In this document: positions 8,601 through 21,911 of the stretch, piece after piece
Numbering within the stretch: the first letter of the stretch is position 1
Layout: each line of letters starts with the position of its first letter
NCBI RefSeq assembly: GCF_024808875.1
Contig: NZ_JANUCT010000023.1
Coordinates: 1-38,091 of the forward strand
DNA length: 38,091 nt
Direction of reading: 5' to 3'
Source of the DNA: Methylohalomonas lacus
GTDB lineage: Bacteria; Pseudomonadota; Gammaproteobacteria; Methylohalomonadales; Methylohalomonadaceae
Translations under genes and position numbers: made by a program
The notes under the pieces: model-generated
The model's database searches: none
What the model saw: the letters and a program-made list of their open reading frames with translations, nothing else
What the model was told of the DNA's origin: nothing

Positions 8601-9087
8601 AAATACTCGGCAGGCCTTGAGAGTTCGTCACCAGGGTGCACGTCAGAGGCCGGCTGTGGCCAGTTATGGTTTCATTACTTGTGAACACGCAGTCATGTTT
8701 ATAGTTCGACACCGTTGGACAAGAAACGTCGCTTTCTGTGGCATGGTTCACAGAATTATCGGTTTTTTTTCCGGATCAGGGCAGTTGCAAGGGCTGTCGG
8801 GTGTTTTTTATCTGTCTGATTATTAAATAGATTCTTCCTCTTTGTGCGCACATGAGTGCTCTCCGGTTGGGGCCGGGATAAGCGTAGTAAATTGCAGTGG
8901 CAAGGGTCCGCTGTCGTAGGTCATTTTTTGTATTGTCAGTATCAGTGGCAGGGTTGTGCGCGTAACCGGCAAAAAGCGCGCTGGCGTTTTATCAGCAGGA
9001 ACGAGTCGTGGGTTGCCGGGTCTGATATCATGCCCGCGCAGGGGCATGACCGGGGCGATTTCAGATTTAATCAGATTGGAGATAGGG
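8601..9087. other. Divergent intergenic region between kinase gene and dsbC
   Basis: This 487-base stretch must hold the promoters of both flanking genes. I see no supported gene in it. It has T-tracts (around 8763 and 8803) and an inverted repeat at 9029-9048. No sigma-70 promoter with both elements at good spacing was recognised. Confidence 0.5.
9029..9048. promoter_or_regulatory. Inverted repeat upstream of dsbC
   Basis: CATGCCC and GGGCATG form a perfect 7-base inverted repeat separated by six bases. It lies 40 bases before the dsbC start codon. It could be an operator or a hairpin in the leader; no regulator is suggested by the sequence. Confidence 0.3.
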
Positions 9088-13345: not shown

Positions 13346-15283
13346 ATGACTCACTCATCAATCAGTAAGTGGCTAGCCGCCGCAGCTCTGGTTGTCACCG
13401 CTCCGTTGGTCTCTGCCAATCAGGCCGAGCTCGACAAGCTGATCGACAACCCGAACTACTGGGCTACGCCAAGCGGTAATCTGGCCGGTCATCGTTATAC
13501 CGAACTGGACCAGATCACCAACAAGAACGCCGACAAAATCCAGACGGCTTGGACGTTCTCCACCGGTGTCCTGCGTGGTCACGAAGGTGGTCCCCTGGTC
13601 CTGCCGGCTTCGGCCACGGGTCTGAAGGGCGACACCCTGTTCATCCATGCGGCCTTCCCGAACAATGTCTTCGCTATCAATCTCGATACGCTGGAAATTG
13701 TCTGGGAACACGCACCGCAGCAGGACTACGACACCGTCGTGCCGGTGATGTGCTGTGACACGGTTAACCGTGGTCTCAGCTACGGTGACGGCAAGATCAT
13801 GCTGCTGCAGGCAGACATGACCTTGAAGGCACTGGATGCCAGCTCCGGCGAAGTCGTCTGGAGTGTCGTGAATGGCCAGGATATTCCTGAGTCCAAGGGC
13901 GGCCCGCTGGGTCCGGAACAGGGTGCGACCAACACCCAGGCTCCGCTGGTTGTCAAAGACAAGGTAATGGTGGGCTGCTCCGGTGCCGAGTTCGGTGTCC
14001 GTTGCTGGATGGCCGCCTACAACCTGGACGATGGCAGCCTGGCCTGGCGTGCGTTCAGCATGGGTCCGGATGAAGACATTCTCGTCGATCCGCAGAAAAC
14101 CACCCATCTGGGCAAGCCGATTGGCAAGGACTCCTCCCTCAAGACCTGGTGCGCTGGCAAAGATGACAGCAACTGGACCTGGAACAAGGGCGGTGACTGC
14201 GCCAAGACCTCGGATCAGTGGAAGACCGGTGGTGGCTCCGTCTGGGGCTTCACGACGGCCGACACGGATCTGAACCTGGTCTACTACGGTACCGGTAACC
14301 CGAGCACCTGGAACCCGGTCGTTCGTCCGGGCGACAACAAGTGGTCCATGACCATGATGGCTCGCGATATCGATACCGGTATGGCCAAGTGGTTCTACCA
14401 GATGACCCCGCATGACGAATGGGATTATGACGGCGTCAACGAAATGATCCTGGTCGACATGAAGGTCAAGGGTAAGGAGCGCCAGGCTCTGGTGCACTTC
14501 GACCGTAACGGCTTTGCCTATACCATGGACCGCGTAACCGGTGAACTGTTGGTTGCCGAGAAGTATGACCCGGCCGTTAACTGGGCGACTCACGTTGACA
14601 TGAAGACCGGTCGTCCGAATGTCCAGGAGCGCTTCAGCACGCGTCAGCAGGGTGAAGATACCAACGCCACCAATATCTGCCCGGCCGCGCTGGGTTCCAA
14701 GGATCAGCAGCCTGCTGCCTACTCGCCGCGTACTGGCCTGTTCTACGTGCCGACAAACCACGTCTGCATGAACTATGAGCCGGTCTCTTACGCTGCGGGC
14801 GGTAGCGAGTATGTTGCCGGTCAGCCGTACGTCAACGCCATCCTGTCGATGTTCCCGGCCGGTGTGGTCGAAGAAGACGGCACCAACAACCTGGGTAACT
14901 TCATCGCCTGGGATGCCGACAAGGGCAAGATCGTCTGGTCGATTCCGGAACAGTTCTCCGTCTGGAGTGGTGTTCTGGCGACCGCCGGCGACGTTGCTTT
15001 CTACGGCACCCTGGACGGTTACCTGAAGGCTGTGGACGCCAAGAGCGGCAAGCTGCTCTGGAAGTTCAAGACCCCGTCCGGCATTATCGGCAACACCAAC
15101 GCTTGGGCACACAACGGCAAGCAGTATGTCGGCGTGCTGTCCGGTCTCGGTGGCTGGGCCGGTATCGGCTTCGCCGCGGGTCTTGAGAAAGACACCGACG
15201 GTCTGGGTGCGGTCGGCGCCTACAAGGGCCTCGACAAGTACAGCCGTCTCGGCGGTACGCTGAGTGTCTTCAGCCTGCCGTAA
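13346..15283 (+). CDS. xoxF: Lanthanide-dependent PQQ methanol dehydrogenase XoxF
   Basis: The 645-residue precursor is a periplasmic quinoprotein with an eight-bladed propeller. A signal peptide covers residues 1-24. [13 protein letters not shown] (69-81), the vicinal Cys pair C136-C137, E215 (GAEFG) and N318 (GTGNPS) are the PQQ/metal-site residues. The key motif is [12 protein letters not shown]: catalytic D360 followed two residues later by D362, the extra Asp that marks lanthanide-type XoxF; calcium-type MxaF has Ala there. It is longer than the roughly 600 residues usual for XoxF, partly through a segment near 269-288 with two extra cysteines. The GGAGGAGG site and use of GGT/CGT/C-ending codons suggest high expression. 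A terminator follows at once, so xoxF may be transcribed alone. Confidence 0.95.
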
Positions 15284-15320
15284 GCAGCGCTGTAGTTCCT
15301 CAGCTGTAAAGTAGTACCTG

Positions 15321-15352
15321 CCCCGGTCTTCCCCGTGAAGACCGGGGTTTTT
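15321..15352 (+). terminator. Rho-independent terminator after xoxF
   Basis: CCCCGGTCTTC pairs perfectly with GAAGACCGGGG around a short loop and is followed by five Ts. The remaining roughly 290 bases up to xoxJ hold no gene I can support and should contain the xoxJ promoter. Confidence 0.93.
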
Positions 15353-15639
15353 ATTTGTGTCTCCCGTATTCCCGGGGGAATATCTCCTAGAACTTCTCCG
15401 CTCGGGCCGAGTCTGACGCTGTATTGATTAAAAAATCAGTGGCTTAGCCCGTAAATGCTGGCTTGAGAATGGCCTGGCAAATTGCGAAAATTCTGAAACC
15501 GTAGTGAGCCGGCTGTCCCAGTTTTGACACCCGGTATATTCATTGCCAGTTGCCAGCCAGTGTTGCAGGCCGTTTGATATTGATGCTATGGCGGGTTGTC
15601 GGCCAGATAGCGAATACACAAAATAATTTGGAGTGAGTG

Positions 15640-16521
15640 ATGATGAATTTCCGCATAACAGGTTGTGGGAGTAACAGCTTCGGCAGGTATCTGGCGACTC
15701 TGGGACTTGCCCTGGTCCTGCCGGTCAACGCGGCAGCGCAGGAAAACAGCGAACGTGAAGCCCTCAAGGTATGCGCAGACGGCAACAACATGCCTTACTC
15801 AAACAAGGACAAGGAAGGCTTCGAAAACAAGATTGCCGAGCTTTTTGGCGACCACTTGGGCGTTCCGGTTGAATATACCTTCTTCCCGCAGCGCATGGGC
15901 TTTATCCGCAACACGCTCAAGGCCGAAGTCGGCATTGAAGACTACAAATGCGATCTGGTCATGGGTGTCCCCGAGAAATTCGATATTGCCTCGCCTACCG
16001 ACCCCTACTACAGAACCACTTATGTGCTGGCCTATGTTAAAGGTCGCGGTTTTGATGAAGTCGAGAAAGCGGAAGACGTTGTCAATCTGCCCGAGGAGAA
16101 AAAGGAAAAACTTCGCTTTGGCTTGTTTGACCGCGGTCCGGCCCAGCTTTGGCTGCACGAGAATGATCTGATGGAATACGGCATTCCATACCGGTCGCAG
16201 CCGGGGGATACCCGCACTACCATTGGTGACATGATGGACCGTCTTATCGAGGATGAGGTCAACATGACCATCATATACGGCCCGTTTGCCGGCTGGTGGG
16301 CCAAGAAAACCGATGACGTGGACATCAAGGTTATCCCCCTCATGAATGAGCCGGATAACCCGAGTATGCGTTTTGAATTCAACATGTCGATGGCAGTCCG
16401 CTATGGTGATGATGAATGGAAACAGCAGGTCAATGACTTTATCCATAGCCACAAGGATGAAATCCACGAGATTCTGGATGAATATAATATTCCGACGTTG
16501 CCGATGGATCAGGAAATCTGA
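15640..16521 (+). CDS. xoxJ: XoxJ/MxaJ-like periplasmic solute-binding-fold protein
   Basis: The roughly 293-residue protein has a signal peptide ending near VNAAAQ and a type-II periplasmic-binding fold. The sequence after it, LKVCADGNNMPYSNKDKEGFENKIAELF, is typical of the MxaJ/XoxJ family, as are QRMGFIRNTLKA and CDLVMGVP. The family is found beside xoxF/mxaF and is thought to bind or help activate the dehydrogenase. Possible starts are GTG 15637, ATG 15640 and ATG 15643; GGAG at 15630-15633 is best spaced for 15640. It forms a two-gene unit with the next gene, 30 bases downstream. Confidence 0.88.
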   Translation: MMNFRITGCGSNSFGRYLATLGLALVLPVNAAAQENSEREALKVCADGNNMPYSNKDKEGFENKIAELFGDHLGVPVEYTFFPQRMGFIRNTLKAEVGIEDYKCDLVMGVPEKFDIASPTDPYYRTTYVLAYVKGRGFDEVEKAEDVVNLPEEKKEKLRFGLFDRGPAQLWLHENDLMEYGIPYRSQPGDTRTTIGDMMDRLIEDEVNMTIIYGPFAGWWAKKTDDVDIKVIPLMNEPDNPSMRFEFNMSMAVRYGDDEWKQQVNDFIHSHKDEIHEILDEYNIPTLPMDQEI

Positions 16522-16551
16522 TCAGGCCCAATTGATAGCTTGATAATAACC

Positions 16552-17304
16552 ATGATTAAACCAACTACATTACTGTTTGGTACATTGATATTGGCCGCCA
16601 GCCAGCTGGCGTTTGCCCAGGATAGTGATGATTCCGATGCCGCCGGCGGTCAGCCTCGACAGCTGACACCGGCGGAGAAGGATCTGCTGATGCCGGGCCA
16701 TATGGATAATATCGACGAACCTGTAAGGCTCCGTTACGAGTTTGAGAAGACCGGCACCTATGAGGACGGCTTTGAAGACAAGGTGACGATGGACGTGGAA
16801 GAATTCCATGATGACGGCACTGTGTCTGTTGACTTGCAGTTCTTTACCGGACCCAGGGAGGCGACATTCGTCCAGCCGCACAATGAAGAGAACATCAGCC
16901 TGAATACGGTTCTGTTCATTTATCTGCAGGGCGATGTCTATGAGATGACGCGTCTGACTGAGCGCAAGCCTCAGCTGAATGCCTATTTCAACAAGCGTAT
17001 ACGCTGGGCGCTGGCGGACGACTACAAGTCAGAAAAGGTCAAGGTTACCTTCCAGGGTGAGGAGGTTGAGGCAACCAGGTATTCCATAACCCCCTATGCC
17101 GACGATCCCAATCGGGCTGACTATGACAAGTTCGCAGACAAGCGTTACGAGTTCATCGTTTCCGATGTGATCCCGGGCAAGCTCTACCAGATCCATACGG
17201 TCGTCCCGAATAATGTCGAGGAAGGCGCGCCGCCGCTGATAGAGGAAACCTTGACGATTGCCTCGGTAGAACCGTTGAAGGAAAAGACGGTATCTGCCGA
17301 CTGA
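16552..17304 (+). CDS. Unknown periplasmic protein in the xox cluster
   Basis: I do not recognise this 250-residue protein. It starts with a signal peptide (MIKPTTLLFGTLILAASQLAFA) and an acidic stretch (QDSDDSDAAGG), and the remainder is rich in alternating charged and hydrophobic residues that suggest beta strands (for example VRLRYEFEKTGTYEDGF, TVSVDLQFFTGPREATFV). No heme motif, no lipobox and no cysteine in the mature part. It is 30 bases after xoxJ and followed by a terminator, so the two are probably co-transcribed. It occupies the position where xoxG (cytochrome cL) might be expected but is clearly not a cytochrome. A weak ribosome-binding site precedes the ATG. Confidence 0.8.
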   Translation: MIKPTTLLFGTLILAASQLAFAQDSDDSDAAGGQPRQLTPAEKDLLMPGHMDNIDEPVRLRYEFEKTGTYEDGFEDKVTMDVEEFHDDGTVSVDLQFFTGPREATFVQPHNEENISLNTVLFIYLQGDVYEMTRLTERKPQLNAYFNKRIRWALADDYKSEKVKVTFQGEEVEATRYSITPYADDPNRADYDKFADKRYEFIVSDVIPGKLYQIHTVVPNNVEEGAPPLIEETLTIASVEPLKEKTVSAD

Positions 17305-17337: not shown

Positions 17338-17364
17338 AGCCCGCTCACAGAGCGGGCTTTTTTT
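17338..17364 (+). terminator. Rho-independent terminator after the xoxJ unit
   Basis: AGCCCGCT-CACAG-AGCGGGCT followed by seven Ts; it also separates this unit from the convergent fdhA gene. Confidence 0.93.
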
Positions 17365-17418: not shown

Positions 17419-20220
17419 TCAGGCGGCACCGACTGCTTCACTACGGCTGTGTTGCCCGGCGTCGCCATGGGTTTCCGGACGTATGCGGATGGCACAGTAC
17501 TTGAACTCCGGAATCTTGCCGAATGGATCCAGGGCCTCGTTGGTCAGCAGATTGGCGGCTGCCTCGTTATAGCAGAACGCCATGAACACCGACTTACGTG
17601 CCATGCCGGCATCGGCACGGGCCTTGGCGGTGACCTGGCCACGGCGTGACTCGATGACCACGTTGCTGCCCGGCTTGATATCCAGTGCCTTCATGTCTTC
17701 GGGGTGGATGTTGGCCACGGCTTCCGGCTCGATGGCGTCGAGCACCGTGGCGTGCCGGGTCATGCTGCCGGTATGCCAGTGTTCCAGCTGTCGACCCGTG
17801 GTGAAGATGAACGGGAACTCCGGATCCGGCATTTCCGCAGCGTGGACATAGCCGGCGGGCACGAAACGGGCGCGCTCGCTCTTGGTCGGGAAACCGTCCT
17901 GGAAGATGACCGGACTGCCGGGGTCGCCCTCCTTTTCCAGCGGGTAGGTCAGGCTGTCTTCGGCGTTCAGACGCTCCCAGGTCATGCCGGCGATACTCGG
18001 CGTGGCCAGGCGCATTTCCTCGAAGACATCGCTGACTGACTCGTACGTCCAGTCGAGCCCCAGGTGGTTCGCCAGCTGCTGGATGATCCACAGGTCCTGA
18101 CGGGCATCGCCCGGCGGGTCGATGGCCTGGCGGCCCAGCTGTACGCGGCGGTCGGTGTTGGTGAACGTGCCGGTCTTTTCCGGGAAGGCCGAGGCCGGCA
18201 GTATCACGTCGGCGAAACCGGCGGTTTCGGTGAAGAAGATATCCTGGACGACGAGGTGGTCCAGATCGGCCAGGGCCTGGCGGGCGTGGCTCAGGTTGGG
18301 ATCCGACATGGCCGGATTTTCACCCATGATGTACATGCCATTGAGCTTGCCTTCATGGACGGCGGTCATGATTTCTACCACGGTCAGGCCGGGTTTCGGA
18401 TCCAGCTTGGTGTTCCAGAGCTTCTCGAACTTGGCCTGGACTTCCGGGTCGTCGACCTTCTGGTAGTCCGGGTAGACCATCGGGATCAGGCCGACGTCGG
18501 AAGCGCCCTGGACGTTGTTCTGGCCGCGCAGGGGGTGCAGGCCGGTACCGGGCCGGCCGACCTGGCCGGTGAGCAATGCCAGTGCGATCAGGCAGCGGGC
18601 GTTGTCGGTACCGTGCACGTGCTGCGAGATACCCATGCCCCAGAAGATCATCGATCCCTTGGCCGTGGCATACGTGCGTGCGACTTCGCGAATGGTTTCG
18701 GCCGGAATGCCGGTGATCGGCGCCACCTTCTCCGGTGGATAGTCCATCACGTTCTGTTTCAGTTCCTCGTAACCCTCGGTATAGTTACGAATGTAGTCGT
18801 CGTTCTGCAGGCCTTCCTCGATGATCGTGTACATCATCGCGTTCAGCAGCGGCACGTCGGTATCGGCATTAAACTGCAAGGAGTAGGTCGCATGGCGGGC
18901 GATCTCGGACCGGTACGGGTCCATGACGATCAGTTTCTTGCCATTCTGGGCCGCGTTCTTCATGAACGTCGCCGCGACCGGGTGATTGACCGTCGGCCGT
19001 GCGCCGATGATGATCATGACCTCGGCTTCGGCAACGTCCTTCACCTGGTTCGAGACCGAGCCGGAACCGATCGTTTCCAGCATGGCGGCAACCGACGAAG
19101 CGTGGCACAGGCGCGTGCAGTGGTCGACGTTGTTCGTGTGGAAACCGGTGCGTACCAGTTTCTGGAACAGGTAGGCCTCCTCGTTGCTGCCCTTGGCTGA
19201 ACCGAAACCGGCCAGCGCCTGCGGGCCGATATCGTCGCGGATCTTCTTCAGGCCGGCGGCGGCGAAGGTCAGTGCCTCGTCCCAGGTGGCCTCGCGGAAA
19301 TACTCGTCGAGCTGGTCCTGGCTTAGGATCTCCGTGGTCTTGGGCTTGCCTTCACGACGGATGAGCGGTTTGGTCAGCCGGTCGGCGTGGTGTACGTAGT
19401 CAAAGCCGTAGCGGCCCTTGACGCACAGGCGGCTTTGATTTGACGGACCGTTGCGACCGTTGGCGTAGAGGATCTGGTTGTCCTTGACGTTGTAGGTCAG
19501 CAGGCAGCCGACACCGCAGTACGGGCAGACCGACTCGACCTGCTTGTCCGGTTCAATCTTGCCGACGCCGTTGGCCGGCATCAGTGCGCCGGTAGGGCAG
19601 GCCTGTACGCATTCGCCGCAGGTCACGCAGGTGCTGTCGCCCATCGGGTCGTCGAGGTCGAAGACAATCTTCGATTCCTCGCCGCGGAAGGCGTAGCCGA
19701 TGACGTCGTTGACCTGTTCCTCGCGACAGGCACGCACGCACCGCGTGCACTGAATGCAGGCGTCGAGATTGACGGCGATGGCGGCGTTGGTGAGATCGGG
19801 GGTCGGCTCGTGGCGCTGCTCGAAGCGCGGTTTGCCGACGCCAAGTTTCTTCACCCAGTAGTCGAGCTCGGAATTCTGCGCGTAGGGCGACTCGCCCTGG
19901 TCGGGCATATCGGCCAGCAGCAGTTCCAGCACCATCTTCTGCGACAGCAGGGCGCGTTCATTATCGCTTTTGACCTTCATGTCCGGCTTCGGCTGGCGGC
20001 AACAGGACGGCGCCAGGATGCGCTCGCCCTCGATTTCCACCATGCAGGAACGGCAGTTACCGACCTCACGGTAGCCGTCCTTGTAGCACAGGTGCGGAAT
20101 TTCAACGCCGGCGCGCTTGGCGGCCTGCAGGATCGTTTCGCCTTCCAGCGCCTCGATCGTGCGACCGTTGAGTTCGAACTGAACCTTTGTTTCGGGAATG
20201 GTGTCGGGATTCGCAGCCAT
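17419..20220 (-). CDS. fdhA: NAD-dependent formate dehydrogenase, catalytic alpha subunit
   Basis: The 933-residue cytoplasmic subunit oxidises formate to CO2. It begins with a 2Fe-2S domain (C45, C56, C59 and C73 or C74). Two ferredoxin-type 4Fe-4S clusters follow (C155-C158-C161-C165 and C198-C201-C204-C208), then the CISM domain with C232-C235-C239-C266 and the Mo/W ligand C372 in RLCHASS. No selenocysteine is needed. The His-Cys3 cluster motif found in some relatives is not visible between residues 98 and 130. The ATG overlaps the fdhB stop by one base (TAATG). The arrangement with a fused beta subunit resembles Fdh1 of Methylobacterium, whose metal is tungsten; Mo or W cannot be told from sequence. 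Confidence 0.95.
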   Translation of the reverse strand: MAANPDTIPETKVQFELNGRTIEALEGETILQAAKRAGVEIPHLCYKDGYREVGNCRSCMVEIEGERILAPSCCRQPKPDMKVKSDNERALLSQKMVLELLLADMPDQGESPYAQNSELDYWVKKLGVGKPRFEQRHEPTPDLTNAAIAVNLDACIQCTRCVRACREEQVNDVIGYAFRGEESKIVFDLDDPMGDSTCVTCGECVQACPTGALMPANGVGKIEPDKQVESVCPYCGVGCLLTYNVKDNQILYANGRNGPSNQSRLCVKGRYGFDYVHHADRLTKPLIRREGKPKTTEILSQDQLDEYFREATWDEALTFAAAGLKKIRDDIGPQALAGFGSAKGSNEEAYLFQKLVRTGFHTNNVDHCTRLCHASSVAAMLETIGSGSVSNQVKDVAEAEVMIIIGARPTVNHPVAATFMKNAAQNGKKLIVMDPYRSEIARHATYSLQFNADTDVPLLNAMMYTIIEEGLQNDDYIRNYTEGYEELKQNVMDYPPEKVAPITGIPAETIREVARTYATAKGSMIFWGMGISQHVHGTDNARCLIALALLTGQVGRPGTGLHPLRGQNNVQGASDVGLIPMVYPDYQKVDDPEVQAKFEKLWNTKLDPKPGLTVVEIMTAVHEGKLNGMYIMGENPAMSDPNLSHARQALADLDHLVVQDIFFTETAGFADVILPASAFPEKTGTFTNTDRRVQLGRQAIDPPGDARQDLWIIQQLANHLGLDWTYESVSDVFEEMRLATPSIAGMTWERLNAEDSLTYPLEKEGDPGSPVIFQDGFPTKSERARFVPAGYVHAAEMPDPEFPFIFTTGRQLEHWHTGSMTRHATVLDAIEPEAVANIHPEDMKALDIKPGSNVVIESRRGQVTAKARADAGMARKSVFMAFCYNEAAANLLTNEALDPFGKIPEFKYCAIRIRPETHGDAGQHSRSEAVGAA

Positions 20221-21911
20221 TACTTGAACTCCTCCGGGAAATACTTGATGGCACAGCGCAGCGGGTTCGGTGCCGCCTGGCCGAGGCCGCAAATCGAGGC
20301 ATCGACCATGGCTGTAGCCAGTTCTTCCAGCAGCGGTGTATCCCAGTGATCTTTCTCCATCAGCTTCACGGCTTTGGCCGTGCCAACCCGGCAGGGGGTG
20401 CACTGGCCACAGGATTCATGCGAGAAAAAGCGCATCGCGTTCAGCGCTGTCTGGCGGGCGCTGTCCTTGTCGGACAGCACGATAATAGCGGCCGAGCCGA
20501 TAAAACAGCTCTTGTCGACGTCCTGCAGCGTATCGAAGTCGAGCGGCACGTCGGCCTTCGAGGCCGGCAGGATGCCGCCCGAGGCACCGCCGGGAAAATA
20601 GCCATAGAGTTCGTGGCCGTCTTCCATGCCGTCGCAGTATTCATCGATTAGCTCACGCAGGGTGATGCCGGCGGGTGCCAGGTGCACACCGGGTTTTTTC
20701 ACCCGGCCGCTGACGGAAAACGAGCGCATGCCCTGGCGGCCGTTGCGGCCCTGGGAAGCGAACCATTCCGGTCCCTTCTCCAGCACGTCGCGGACCCAGT
20801 GCATGGTCTCAAGGTTTTGCTCCAGCGTCGGCTGGCCGAAGATACCGACCTGGGCGACCAGCGGCGGGCGCAAGCGCGGCATGCCGCGCTTGCCCTCGAT
20901 CGATTCGATCATCGCCGACTCCTCGCCGCAGATGTAGGCGCCGGCGCCGCGGCGGATATGAATCCGCGGTAACTTGCAGGGCGGATTGGCCTCGAGATCG
21001 GCAACCGTCTTGTGCAGGATGCGCTCGGCGGCGGCGTACTCGTCACGCAAATAAAGGTAGACATCGGGCGCGTTGACCGCCCAGGCACCAATCAGCGTGC
21101 CCTCGAGGAAACGGTGCGGGTCGCGTTCCAGGTAATAGCGATCCTTGAAGGTACCGGGTTCGCCCTCGTCGATGTTGATGGCCACGTAGCGCGGCTCCGG
21201 CTCCTGGCGCAGCGCGCGCCACTTGCGGCCGGCCGGGAAACCGGCACCGCCGAGGCCGCGCAGTTTGGCGTCCTCGAGTGTTGTGACGACTTCCTCGACA
21301 TCGCGCTCGCCGTTCACGCAGGCGGCCAGGGTCTGGTAACCGCCGTCCGCACGGTACCCGTCGTAATGGATCACGCCGTCGACTTCCGGTGGCATGATTG
21401 CGCCGGCATCGACTGCGGTCTTGACGTTGTCCTTGGTCGCGTGACCGATCTGGTTGCGGCCGACAACCGCCACCGGTGCTTCGTAGCAGCGGCCAACACA
21501 GGGTACGCGCTGGATACGTACGTCGGAACCGTGCTGCTTCTGCAGATCGTCAACCAGGCTGTCACAGCCGTACATCTCGCAGGTGACGGATTCGCAGACG
21601 CGAACGGTCAGTGCCGGGGGCGGGGTGTCGTCATCCTTGATGACGTCGAAGTGATGGTAAAAGGTGGCGACCTCGTAGACCTCGGTCATCGCCAGTTTCA
21701 TTTCATGGGCGAGCGCGACCATGTGCTCGGCGGAAATGTGCTGGTAGGTGTCCTGGATGCGGTGCAGGTATTCGATCAGCAGATCGCGCTGCCGCGGGTC
21801 ATCGCCCAGCAGCGCCTGTACCTCGGCCAGGGCCTGGCCATCCACTTGCCGGCCTTTCATGTGACCGCGCTTGTTTTTCTTTACTTTGGGTAATTCGGCA
21901 ACGTTGCTCAC
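20220..21911 (-). CDS. fdhB: NAD-dependent formate dehydrogenase, fused NuoE-NuoF beta subunit
   Basis: The 563-residue protein fuses a NuoE-like and a NuoF-like module and passes electrons from FdhA to NAD+. The N-terminal 2Fe-2S cysteines are C106, C111, C138 and C142 (CESVTC, CVGRC). The FMN site is GLGGAGFPAGRKW at 219-231 and the NADH-binding loop is GAYICGEESA. The 4Fe-4S site near the end is C501-G-Q-C504-T-P-C507 plus C541. Length agrees with the fused Fdh1B type. It lies 22 bases downstream of fhcC on the same strand, so it is likely in one transcript with the fhc genes. Confidence 0.95.
   Translation of the reverse strand: MSNVAELPKVKKNKRGHMKGRQVDGQALAEVQALLGDDPRQRDLLIEYLHRIQDTYQHISAEHMVALAHEMKLAMTEVYEVATFYHHFDVIKDDDTPPPALTVRVCESVTCEMYGCDSLVDDLQKQHGSDVRIQRVPCVGRCYEAPVAVVGRNQIGHATKDNVKTAVDAGAIMPPEVDGVIHYDGYRADGGYQTLAACVNGERDVEEVVTTLEDAKLRGLGGAGFPAGRKWRALRQEPEPRYVAINIDEGEPGTFKDRYYLERDPHRFLEGTLIGAWAVNAPDVYLYLRDEYAAAERILHKTVADLEANPPCKLPRIHIRRGAGAYICGEESAMIESIEGKRGMPRLRPPLVAQVGIFGQPTLEQNLETMHWVRDVLEKGPEWFASQGRNGRQGMRSFSVSGRVKKPGVHLAPAGITLRELIDEYCDGMEDGHELYGYFPGGASGGILPASKADVPLDFDTLQDVDKSCFIGSAAIIVLSDKDSARQTALNAMRFFSHESCGQCTPCRVGTAKAVKLMEKDHWDTPLLEELATAMVDASICGLGQAAPNPLRCAIKYFPEEFK

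Follow-up and report, generated by a model that had tools for sequence, protein, structure and literature searches.

A blue copper protein as candidate electron acceptor of the lanthanide-type methanol dehydrogenase XoxF in Methylohalomonas lacus and its gammaproteobacterial relatives

Introduction

The xox locus of Methylohalomonas lacus raises the question of where a methanol dehydrogenase passes its electrons when the gene for its usual acceptor is missing. Methylotrophic PQQ alcohol dehydrogenases have been described, in the portions of PMC7391723 available to us, as all being associated with a cytochrome cL. A first-pass annotation of the present DNA had seen no such cytochrome beside xoxF and xoxJ and had suggested that the acceptor is either encoded elsewhere or replaced by a different electron route; both branches have gained support, as the genome encodes the cytochrome MxaG and two stand-alone copper proteins. 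The absence of the cytochrome was confirmed, and what makes that annotation interesting is its suggestion of a different electron route. Our preferred reading, to which we assign a probability of roughly 0.58, is that XoxF of this organism would deliver its electrons to a pseudoazurin-like blue copper protein encoded elsewhere in the genome.

The xox locus of Methylohalomonas lacus

The window, i.e., the whole stretch of DNA analysed, is a contig of 38,091 nucleotides (C23) of the M. lacus genome, which is 2.76 Mb in size and 99% complete. The following features are relevant:

13346 to 15283, forward strand: xoxF, lanthanide-type PQQ methanol dehydrogenase of 645 amino acids (TIGR03075, 633 bits; 6dam/6oc5; DYD)
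15284 to 15636, no strand: xoxF–xoxJ gap of 353 bases, site of the acceptor gene in relatives, empty in the window, with no credible remnant
15320 to 15348, forward strand: terminator-like hairpin 3' of xoxF, 12 pairs followed by a T-rich stretch (pattern scan)
15637 to 16521, forward strand: xoxJ, Xox-system periplasmic binding protein (TIGR03871 over cut-off; 6onp, E 6.8e-38)
16552 to 17304, forward strand: orf7-like unknown periplasmic protein, predicted LolA-like half-barrel, conserved after xoxJ (profile, neighbourhood, structure model)
17338 to 17358, forward strand: terminator-like hairpin 3' of the orf7-like gene (pattern scan)

XoxF enzymes carry an extra lanthanide-binding aspartate, resulting in DYD where MxaF has DYA. 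The window's protein, in which PHDEWDYDG aligns with the DYD of 6dam, has its nearest solved relatives in 6dam (836 bits) and 6oc5 (775 bits), compared to at most 529 bits for MxaF-type chains, and is thus assigned to the lanthanide type; the corresponding motif in the MxaF of the same genome, translated by eye, is PHDEWDYAG. The assignment of xoxJ follows from TIGR03871, whose cut-off of 212.15 bits is exceeded with a score of 251.7. As the first-pass annotation had stated, xoxJ is followed, 30 bases on, by a gene for a periplasmic protein with a signal peptide and zero cysteine, which we call orf7-like for reasons of gene position given below. Because terminator-like hairpins follow both xoxF and the orf7-like gene, xoxJ and the orf7-like gene look like a two-gene transcript apart from xoxF, and their presumed co-transcription is compatible with the 30-base gap and the flanking hairpins; these hairpins are patterns only, ten having been found in the region scanned versus 4.5 expected.

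Directly after the orf7-like gene and convergent with it lies a gene for a formate dehydrogenase alpha subunit (window positions 17419-20403). The same neighbour is present in many relatives (L049–L051, L053, L056, L059, L061–L064), and since it adjoins the orf7-like gene there as well, conservation of the neighbourhood extends past the xox genes. The genome further contains a second, stand-alone xoxF that is 79% identical to that of the window (G000:C18:10907-12793; L267:7905-9803). The upstream regions of the two xoxF genes have a 14-mer in common (one mismatch, near -120), judged against crude mononucleotide shuffles only.

The acceptor slot between xoxF and xoxJ

Gene content and gene order were read directly from 64 distinct loci, all chosen by the presence of the orf7-like gene and comprising, after removal of eight duplicates, the window, 30 relatives from the class sample and 41 loci on named contigs whose titles all denote MAGs. 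The contig loci were obtained with a smaller alignment (A4) biased to members having the motif QGDVYEM; as this motif comes from close relatives, these loci favour the copper type. For gene-order calls, XoxF and XoxJ were located by single-sequence searches, and the copper protein, XoxG and the orf7-like protein by profiles; the orf7-like and copper profiles were partly built from the same loci, and the XoxF and XoxJ searches used the window proteins only. The resulting gene order varies very little. At the level of the order, M. lacus is the sole genome in the set.

In the relatives, the acceptor gene is situated between xoxF and xoxJ, and the orf7-like gene comes after xoxJ as an additional conserved member; hence, the earlier assignment of this protein to the xoxG position was wrong. 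Where at least 2.5 kb of upstream sequence is available (46 loci), the slot holds a copper protein in 37 cases (with two copper-protein matches in four of them), XoxG in five and neither in four. For the 40 loci with xoxF in the same run, the respective numbers are 35, three and two, the last being the window and L134. Classified by locus, 18 of the 30 class-sample relatives are of the copper type, seven are of the XoxG type and five are undecided. In the window itself, nothing in the xoxF–xoxJ gap can credibly be read as a leftover acceptor gene: the best alignment covers 15 residues at E 0.006, and all others have E values of at least 0.049.

Several individual loci deserve mention. In L049, L050, L060 and L075 (genomes G315, G216, G096 and G173), xoxF lies on another contig, and the three accessory genes (copper protein, xoxJ and orf7-like gene) hold together without it. 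L134, from genome G747, has the order xoxF–xoxJ–orf7-like gene and an empty slot like the window. Two contigs titled as Klebsiella pneumoniae MAGs (L169 and L171) carry the operon; on the XoxJ tree they group with uncultured gammaproteobacteria, and the titles look like mislabels.

On this tree, which comprises 65 rows and the MxaJ of M. lacus, the type of acceptor is clustered, with four changes for three labels versus a shuffled mean of 15.7, a clustering that near-copies in the tree make easy to obtain. One change suffices for the XoxG rows, at weak support (47/89). The XoxJ of the window is located among copper-type rows, with L059 as nearest sequence (51% identity) and the branching around the window poorly settled, and L134 lies inside an otherwise copper-type clade (100/98).

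Cytochromes of Methylohalomonas lacus and its relatives

The initial statement that the window has no CxxCH-type gene held: no stop-to-stop frame of at least 50 amino acids contains the motif, and at the DNA level there is a single match (8738-8752), compared to 3.1 expected by chance. The search of the whole genome for xoxG that had been proposed yielded none. With a profile built from the XoxG of six relatives, the best match was at E 1.8e-4, within a frame of 388 residues whose sequence suggests an oxidase subunit. MxaG (C1:142863, 207 bits) is the only cytochrome cL to exceed the cut-off; its gene follows mxaF and mxaJ in a calcium-type mxaFJGI operon, and the short gene after it we take to be mxaI.

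This sole cytochrome cL provides the main rival explanation, according to which XoxF would pass its electrons to the MxaG of the calcium system, the copper proteins would do other work, and the xoxF locus would be an ordinary one that lacks a xoxG of its own. The availability of MxaG as a possible acceptor weakens the copper route, as does the occurrence of XoxG-like cytochromes (E<=1e-20) in eight of the 18 copper-type genomes (G119, G301, G234, G120, G163, G066, G011 and G341). Nevertheless, we consider electron transfer to MxaG the less likely route, because a copper protein occupies the slot in all nearest XoxJ relatives, because seven relatives manage with no cytochrome cL found, and because mxa genes are described, in the accessible part of PMC6277846, as lanthanide-repressed when the xox genes are on.

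The seven relatives emerge as follows. MxaG is over the cut-off in only two of the 30 relatives (G119 and G121), with G341 just under it at 133 bits, and ten of the 18 copper-type genomes have neither an XoxG-like match at E<=1e-20 nor an MxaG over the cut-off. Three of the ten were set aside, namely G070, which is 78% complete, G197, which has only partial xoxF matches, and G212, in which weak MxaG-profile matches lie just after two other PQQ-dehydrogenase homologues. In each of the remaining seven (G315, G216, G096, G091, G133, G245 and G173; 90-100% complete), a single homologue of methanol dehydrogenase is detected at E<=1e-100, and neither the XoxG nor the MxaG profile finds a cytochrome cL; in G315, G216, G096 and G173, xoxF is on a contig other than that of the copper–xoxJ–orf7-like genes.

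The acceptor might also be another c-type cytochrome of M. lacus, e.g., a diheme, a small class I or a SoxX-like protein, considering that eight places in the genome are over the PF13442 cut-off. Only MxaG bears a meaningful resemblance to XoxG or MxaG, and the remaining cytochromes read, in our view, as components of other pathways and as oxidase parts; this option thus appears improbable.

Blue copper proteins

Two stand-alone copper proteins are encoded in the M. lacus genome, at C4:174533 and C8:88211. They match the copper profile at E 3.2e-60 and 8.3e-58, are 62% identical to one another, and both pass PF00127 (Copper-bind; 71.8 and 61.5 bits, cut-off 21.2). As both miss the cut-off of TIGR02375 (pseudoazurin; 89.1 and 87.3 bits versus 109.85), they are named "pseudoazurin-like", and this shortfall counts to some extent against the copper route. 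All four type 1 copper ligands (His/Cys/His/Met) are present in the alignment in 54 of 55 copper domains, the exception being the distant match L230.

One of the two copies is soluble. The other (L080:1156-1815, on G000:C8) has a leader that reads as lipoprotein-like, yet was not flagged by a simple lipoprotein pattern, followed by a long Ser/Asp/Ala-rich linker, and it is possibly a membrane-anchored electron carrier. Copies with a longer leader occur in tandem with a soluble one in L052, L057 and L058.

In the copper-protein tree, the two M. lacus copies pair with each other (100/97) inside a 51-row group (94/96), which holds every xox-linked copper protein together with the stand-alone L223 and the long-branch outsider L229. 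On account of the tree placements of these copper proteins and of XoxJ, the window probably lost the copper gene from its operon, the gene having been kept elsewhere in the genome. The distribution across genomes is of note as well: at E<=1e-30, a copper protein is found in none of nine XoxG-type genomes (G074, G085, G121, G131, G170, G208, G311, G332 and G349, with G131 and G349 included since XoxF and XoxG lie together there), and weaker matches occur in G121 (3.8e-21) and G131 (7e-11).

Two further observations weaken the copper route. Neither copper gene of M. lacus is near any xox gene in the stretches examined, and the upstream comparison revealed no motif common to xoxF and the stand-alone copper genes; both points speak for the MxaG alternative. 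In addition, G747, the genome with an empty slot at L134, yielded no copper protein in a profile search and is a real exception.

The orf7-like protein

The family of the protein encoded after xoxJ has no Pfam match. For the window's protein itself, Pfam gave none and NCBIfam only a chance-level one (E 0.06); for 27 family members, only three one-member Pfam matches were obtained (E 0.018-0.035), and no PDB chain was matched in a sequence search with the family profile. The invariant residues (M1, Y62, D76, N118, F146, G169, P181, Y199, P208 and G209) include no redox-metal set.

The gene is present as a single copy in M. lacus, and the family occurs in 31 of 369 sampled genomes of the class, M. 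lacus included. Within 1.9 kb upstream and on the same strand, xoxJ is found in 60 of the 64 distinct loci; the four exceptions are L073 and L078, which are at contig edges, L074, with xoxJ 6.7 kb upstream, and L077, with none in 7.6 kb. A scan across the phylum covered 398 genomes, of which 17 (12 from other classes) carry the family, and added four gammaproteobacterial loci of the order xoxF–xoxG–xoxJ–orf7-like gene. In the 12 loci from other classes, the gene directly follows pqqE in six (L197 and L199-L203), is separated from pqqE by about 1 kb in L207, and is not by pqqE in five; in L200, L202 and L203, xoxFGJ is 3-5.6 kb away and a folP-like gene is on the opposite side. The proposal that the homologues are always next to xoxJ, therefore, stands nearly without exception for the gammaproteobacterial loci sampled, and fails for other classes, in which pqqE is often the neighbour. 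The forms of the window type and of other classes are only 22-26% identical. Three remote family members (L204, L205 and L198) are situated 4-6.5 kb from an XoxF homologue, with no xoxJ in the stretch.

That the orf7-like protein itself has replaced cytochrome cL as electron acceptor might be suspected from its place beside xoxJ in a window without an acceptor. This idea was rejected as highly improbable: the protein has no cysteine and no invariant redox-metal set, its predicted fold is LolA-like, and its gene coexists either with XoxG (seven gammaproteobacterial loci and four more from the phylum scan) or with the copper protein (48 of 64 loci).

The other-class gene layout offers a more informative parallel. 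In the tables and text of PMC7391723 at our disposal, the M. extorquens AM1 locus tags run from 1740 (xoxF1), 1741 (xoxG) and 1742 (xoxJ) to 1746 (orf6), 1747 (orf7) and 1748 (pqqE) (Table 1), and this order matches the layout in other classes, which makes the family the counterpart, by position, of orf7 (MexAM1_META1p1747); the link to AM1 is positional, not from sequence. According to the same partial source, loss of orf7 in M. extorquens leads to a lag of 9 h and to growth at 0.08 versus 0.16 per hour on methanol with lanthanum, and orf7 is needed only with lanthanum.

An AlphaFold2 model from the 27-sequence alignment (pLDDT 86.9, pTM 0.82) has its closest Foldseek folds among the LprG, LppX, LolA and RseB half-barrels (E 2.5e-5, TM about 0.3). 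VIA on the model gave 2yzy (Z 8.6, rmsd 4.1, 132 aligned), RseB (Z 7.8, rmsd 4.5, 143 aligned) and LolA (Z 7.8, rmsd 5.6, 138 aligned). The protein is accordingly predicted to be a LolA-like half-barrel, the similarity being moderate and a common fold being no proof of function.

Based on the orf7 position, the lanthanum-only phenotype and the adjacency to xoxJ, the family is best read as a helper on the XoxF side and not as an electron carrier, in agreement with the accessory role that the first-pass annotation had suggested and that the single copy, the proximity to xoxJ and the orf7 position of the homologue support. The nearness to pqqE suggests PQQ handling, while the lanthanum-only phenotype speaks for an XoxF-specific step rather than a general PQQ carrier. 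Tentatively, at slightly less than even odds, the protein may be a maturation or stability factor acting together with XoxJ.

Proposed electron route

The preferred reading, in which a blue copper protein accepts the electrons of XoxF, can be formulated as follows. The ancestral operon of the lineage would have consisted, in this order, of xoxF, the blue copper gene, xoxJ and the orf7-like gene, and the copper protein would have substituted for cytochrome cL in taking up electrons from XoxF in the periplasm. In M. lacus, the copper gene would have left the operon and would now be represented by the two stand-alone copies. XoxF would oxidize methanol with lanthanide and PQQ, with XoxJ aiding its activation, and the reduced copper protein would hand the electrons onward to a terminal oxidase. 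The orf7-like protein would serve as a periplasmic helper to make or keep XoxF active, its half-barrel probably accommodating a cofactor or a partner that is hydrophobic or unfolded. We infer the electron transfer to the copper protein, the departure of the copper gene from the operon and the ligand of the helper from the comparisons described above. For the lineage as a whole, which is large, gammaproteobacterial and mostly uncultured, it seems somewhat better than an even chance that lanthanide-dependent methanol oxidation proceeds via a dedicated blue copper protein, assisted by a LolA-like periplasmic XoxF helper that haem-type systems have as well.

If this is true, the rule that a methanol dehydrogenase requires a cytochrome cL would no longer hold, the demand of methanol oxidizers for haem and copper would be different, and XoxF systems regarded as incomplete because they lack xoxG may in fact be complete. 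Furthermore, a family without a Pfam match is tied to XoxF through its gene neighbourhood and the published mutant phenotype at the orf7 position. A link between XoxF and a blue copper acceptor was not found in the open-licence literature, and it may have been reported elsewhere; it is absent from the available portions of PMC9038741, PMC12848317, PMC6697039, PMC7391723, PMC3615186, PMC6189053, PMC2680597, PMC12124388 and PMC8262859. Literature naming both xoxF and pseudoazurin, blue copper protein, azurin or amicyanin does so, as far as the accessible text goes, only in passing or apart.

Comparison with known systems

Among the closest known systems is the XoxF/XoxG/XoxJ set of M. extorquens AM1 and M. 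buryatense. The XoxF of the window is nearest to 6dam and 6oc5, its XoxJ is like 6onp, and relatives of the window have the same gene order with the acceptor between xoxF and xoxJ. In contrast to this operon type, the slot is empty in the window, most relatives have a blue copper protein in it, and an extra gene follows xoxJ; xoxJ is present nearby, whereas no XoxG was found either nearby or elsewhere in the genome.

Pseudoazurins are usually encoded in the context of denitrification genes. The copper proteins described here belong to the same fold family as pseudoazurin and its kin (3tu6, 1bqk) by sequence (best E 5.7e-34) and have the type 1 copper ligands; they differ in that the M. lacus copies are under the TIGR02375 cut-off and that the family is linked to xox genes, not to denitrification genes. 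The orf7-like protein moderately resembles the LolA/LppX/LprG/RseB half-barrels in its predicted fold and matches no PDB chain by sequence.

With AM1 orf7, the protein has in common that its homologue family directly follows pqqE in six of 12 other-class loci, and a lanthanum-dependent role has been reported for orf7 (PMC7391723, accessible part). The gammaproteobacterial gene differs in following xoxJ instead of pqqE, and in its 22-26% identity to the other-class form. Methylamine dehydrogenase with its acceptor amicyanin belongs to another enzyme family and has another cofactor, but the similarity in principle is evident from the portions of PMC2680597 available to us: it is likewise a periplasmic dehydrogenase with a quinone cofactor and a blue copper acceptor, and it likewise involves an acceptor swap, since azurin replaces amicyanin with methylamine dehydrogenase in M. 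flagellatus.
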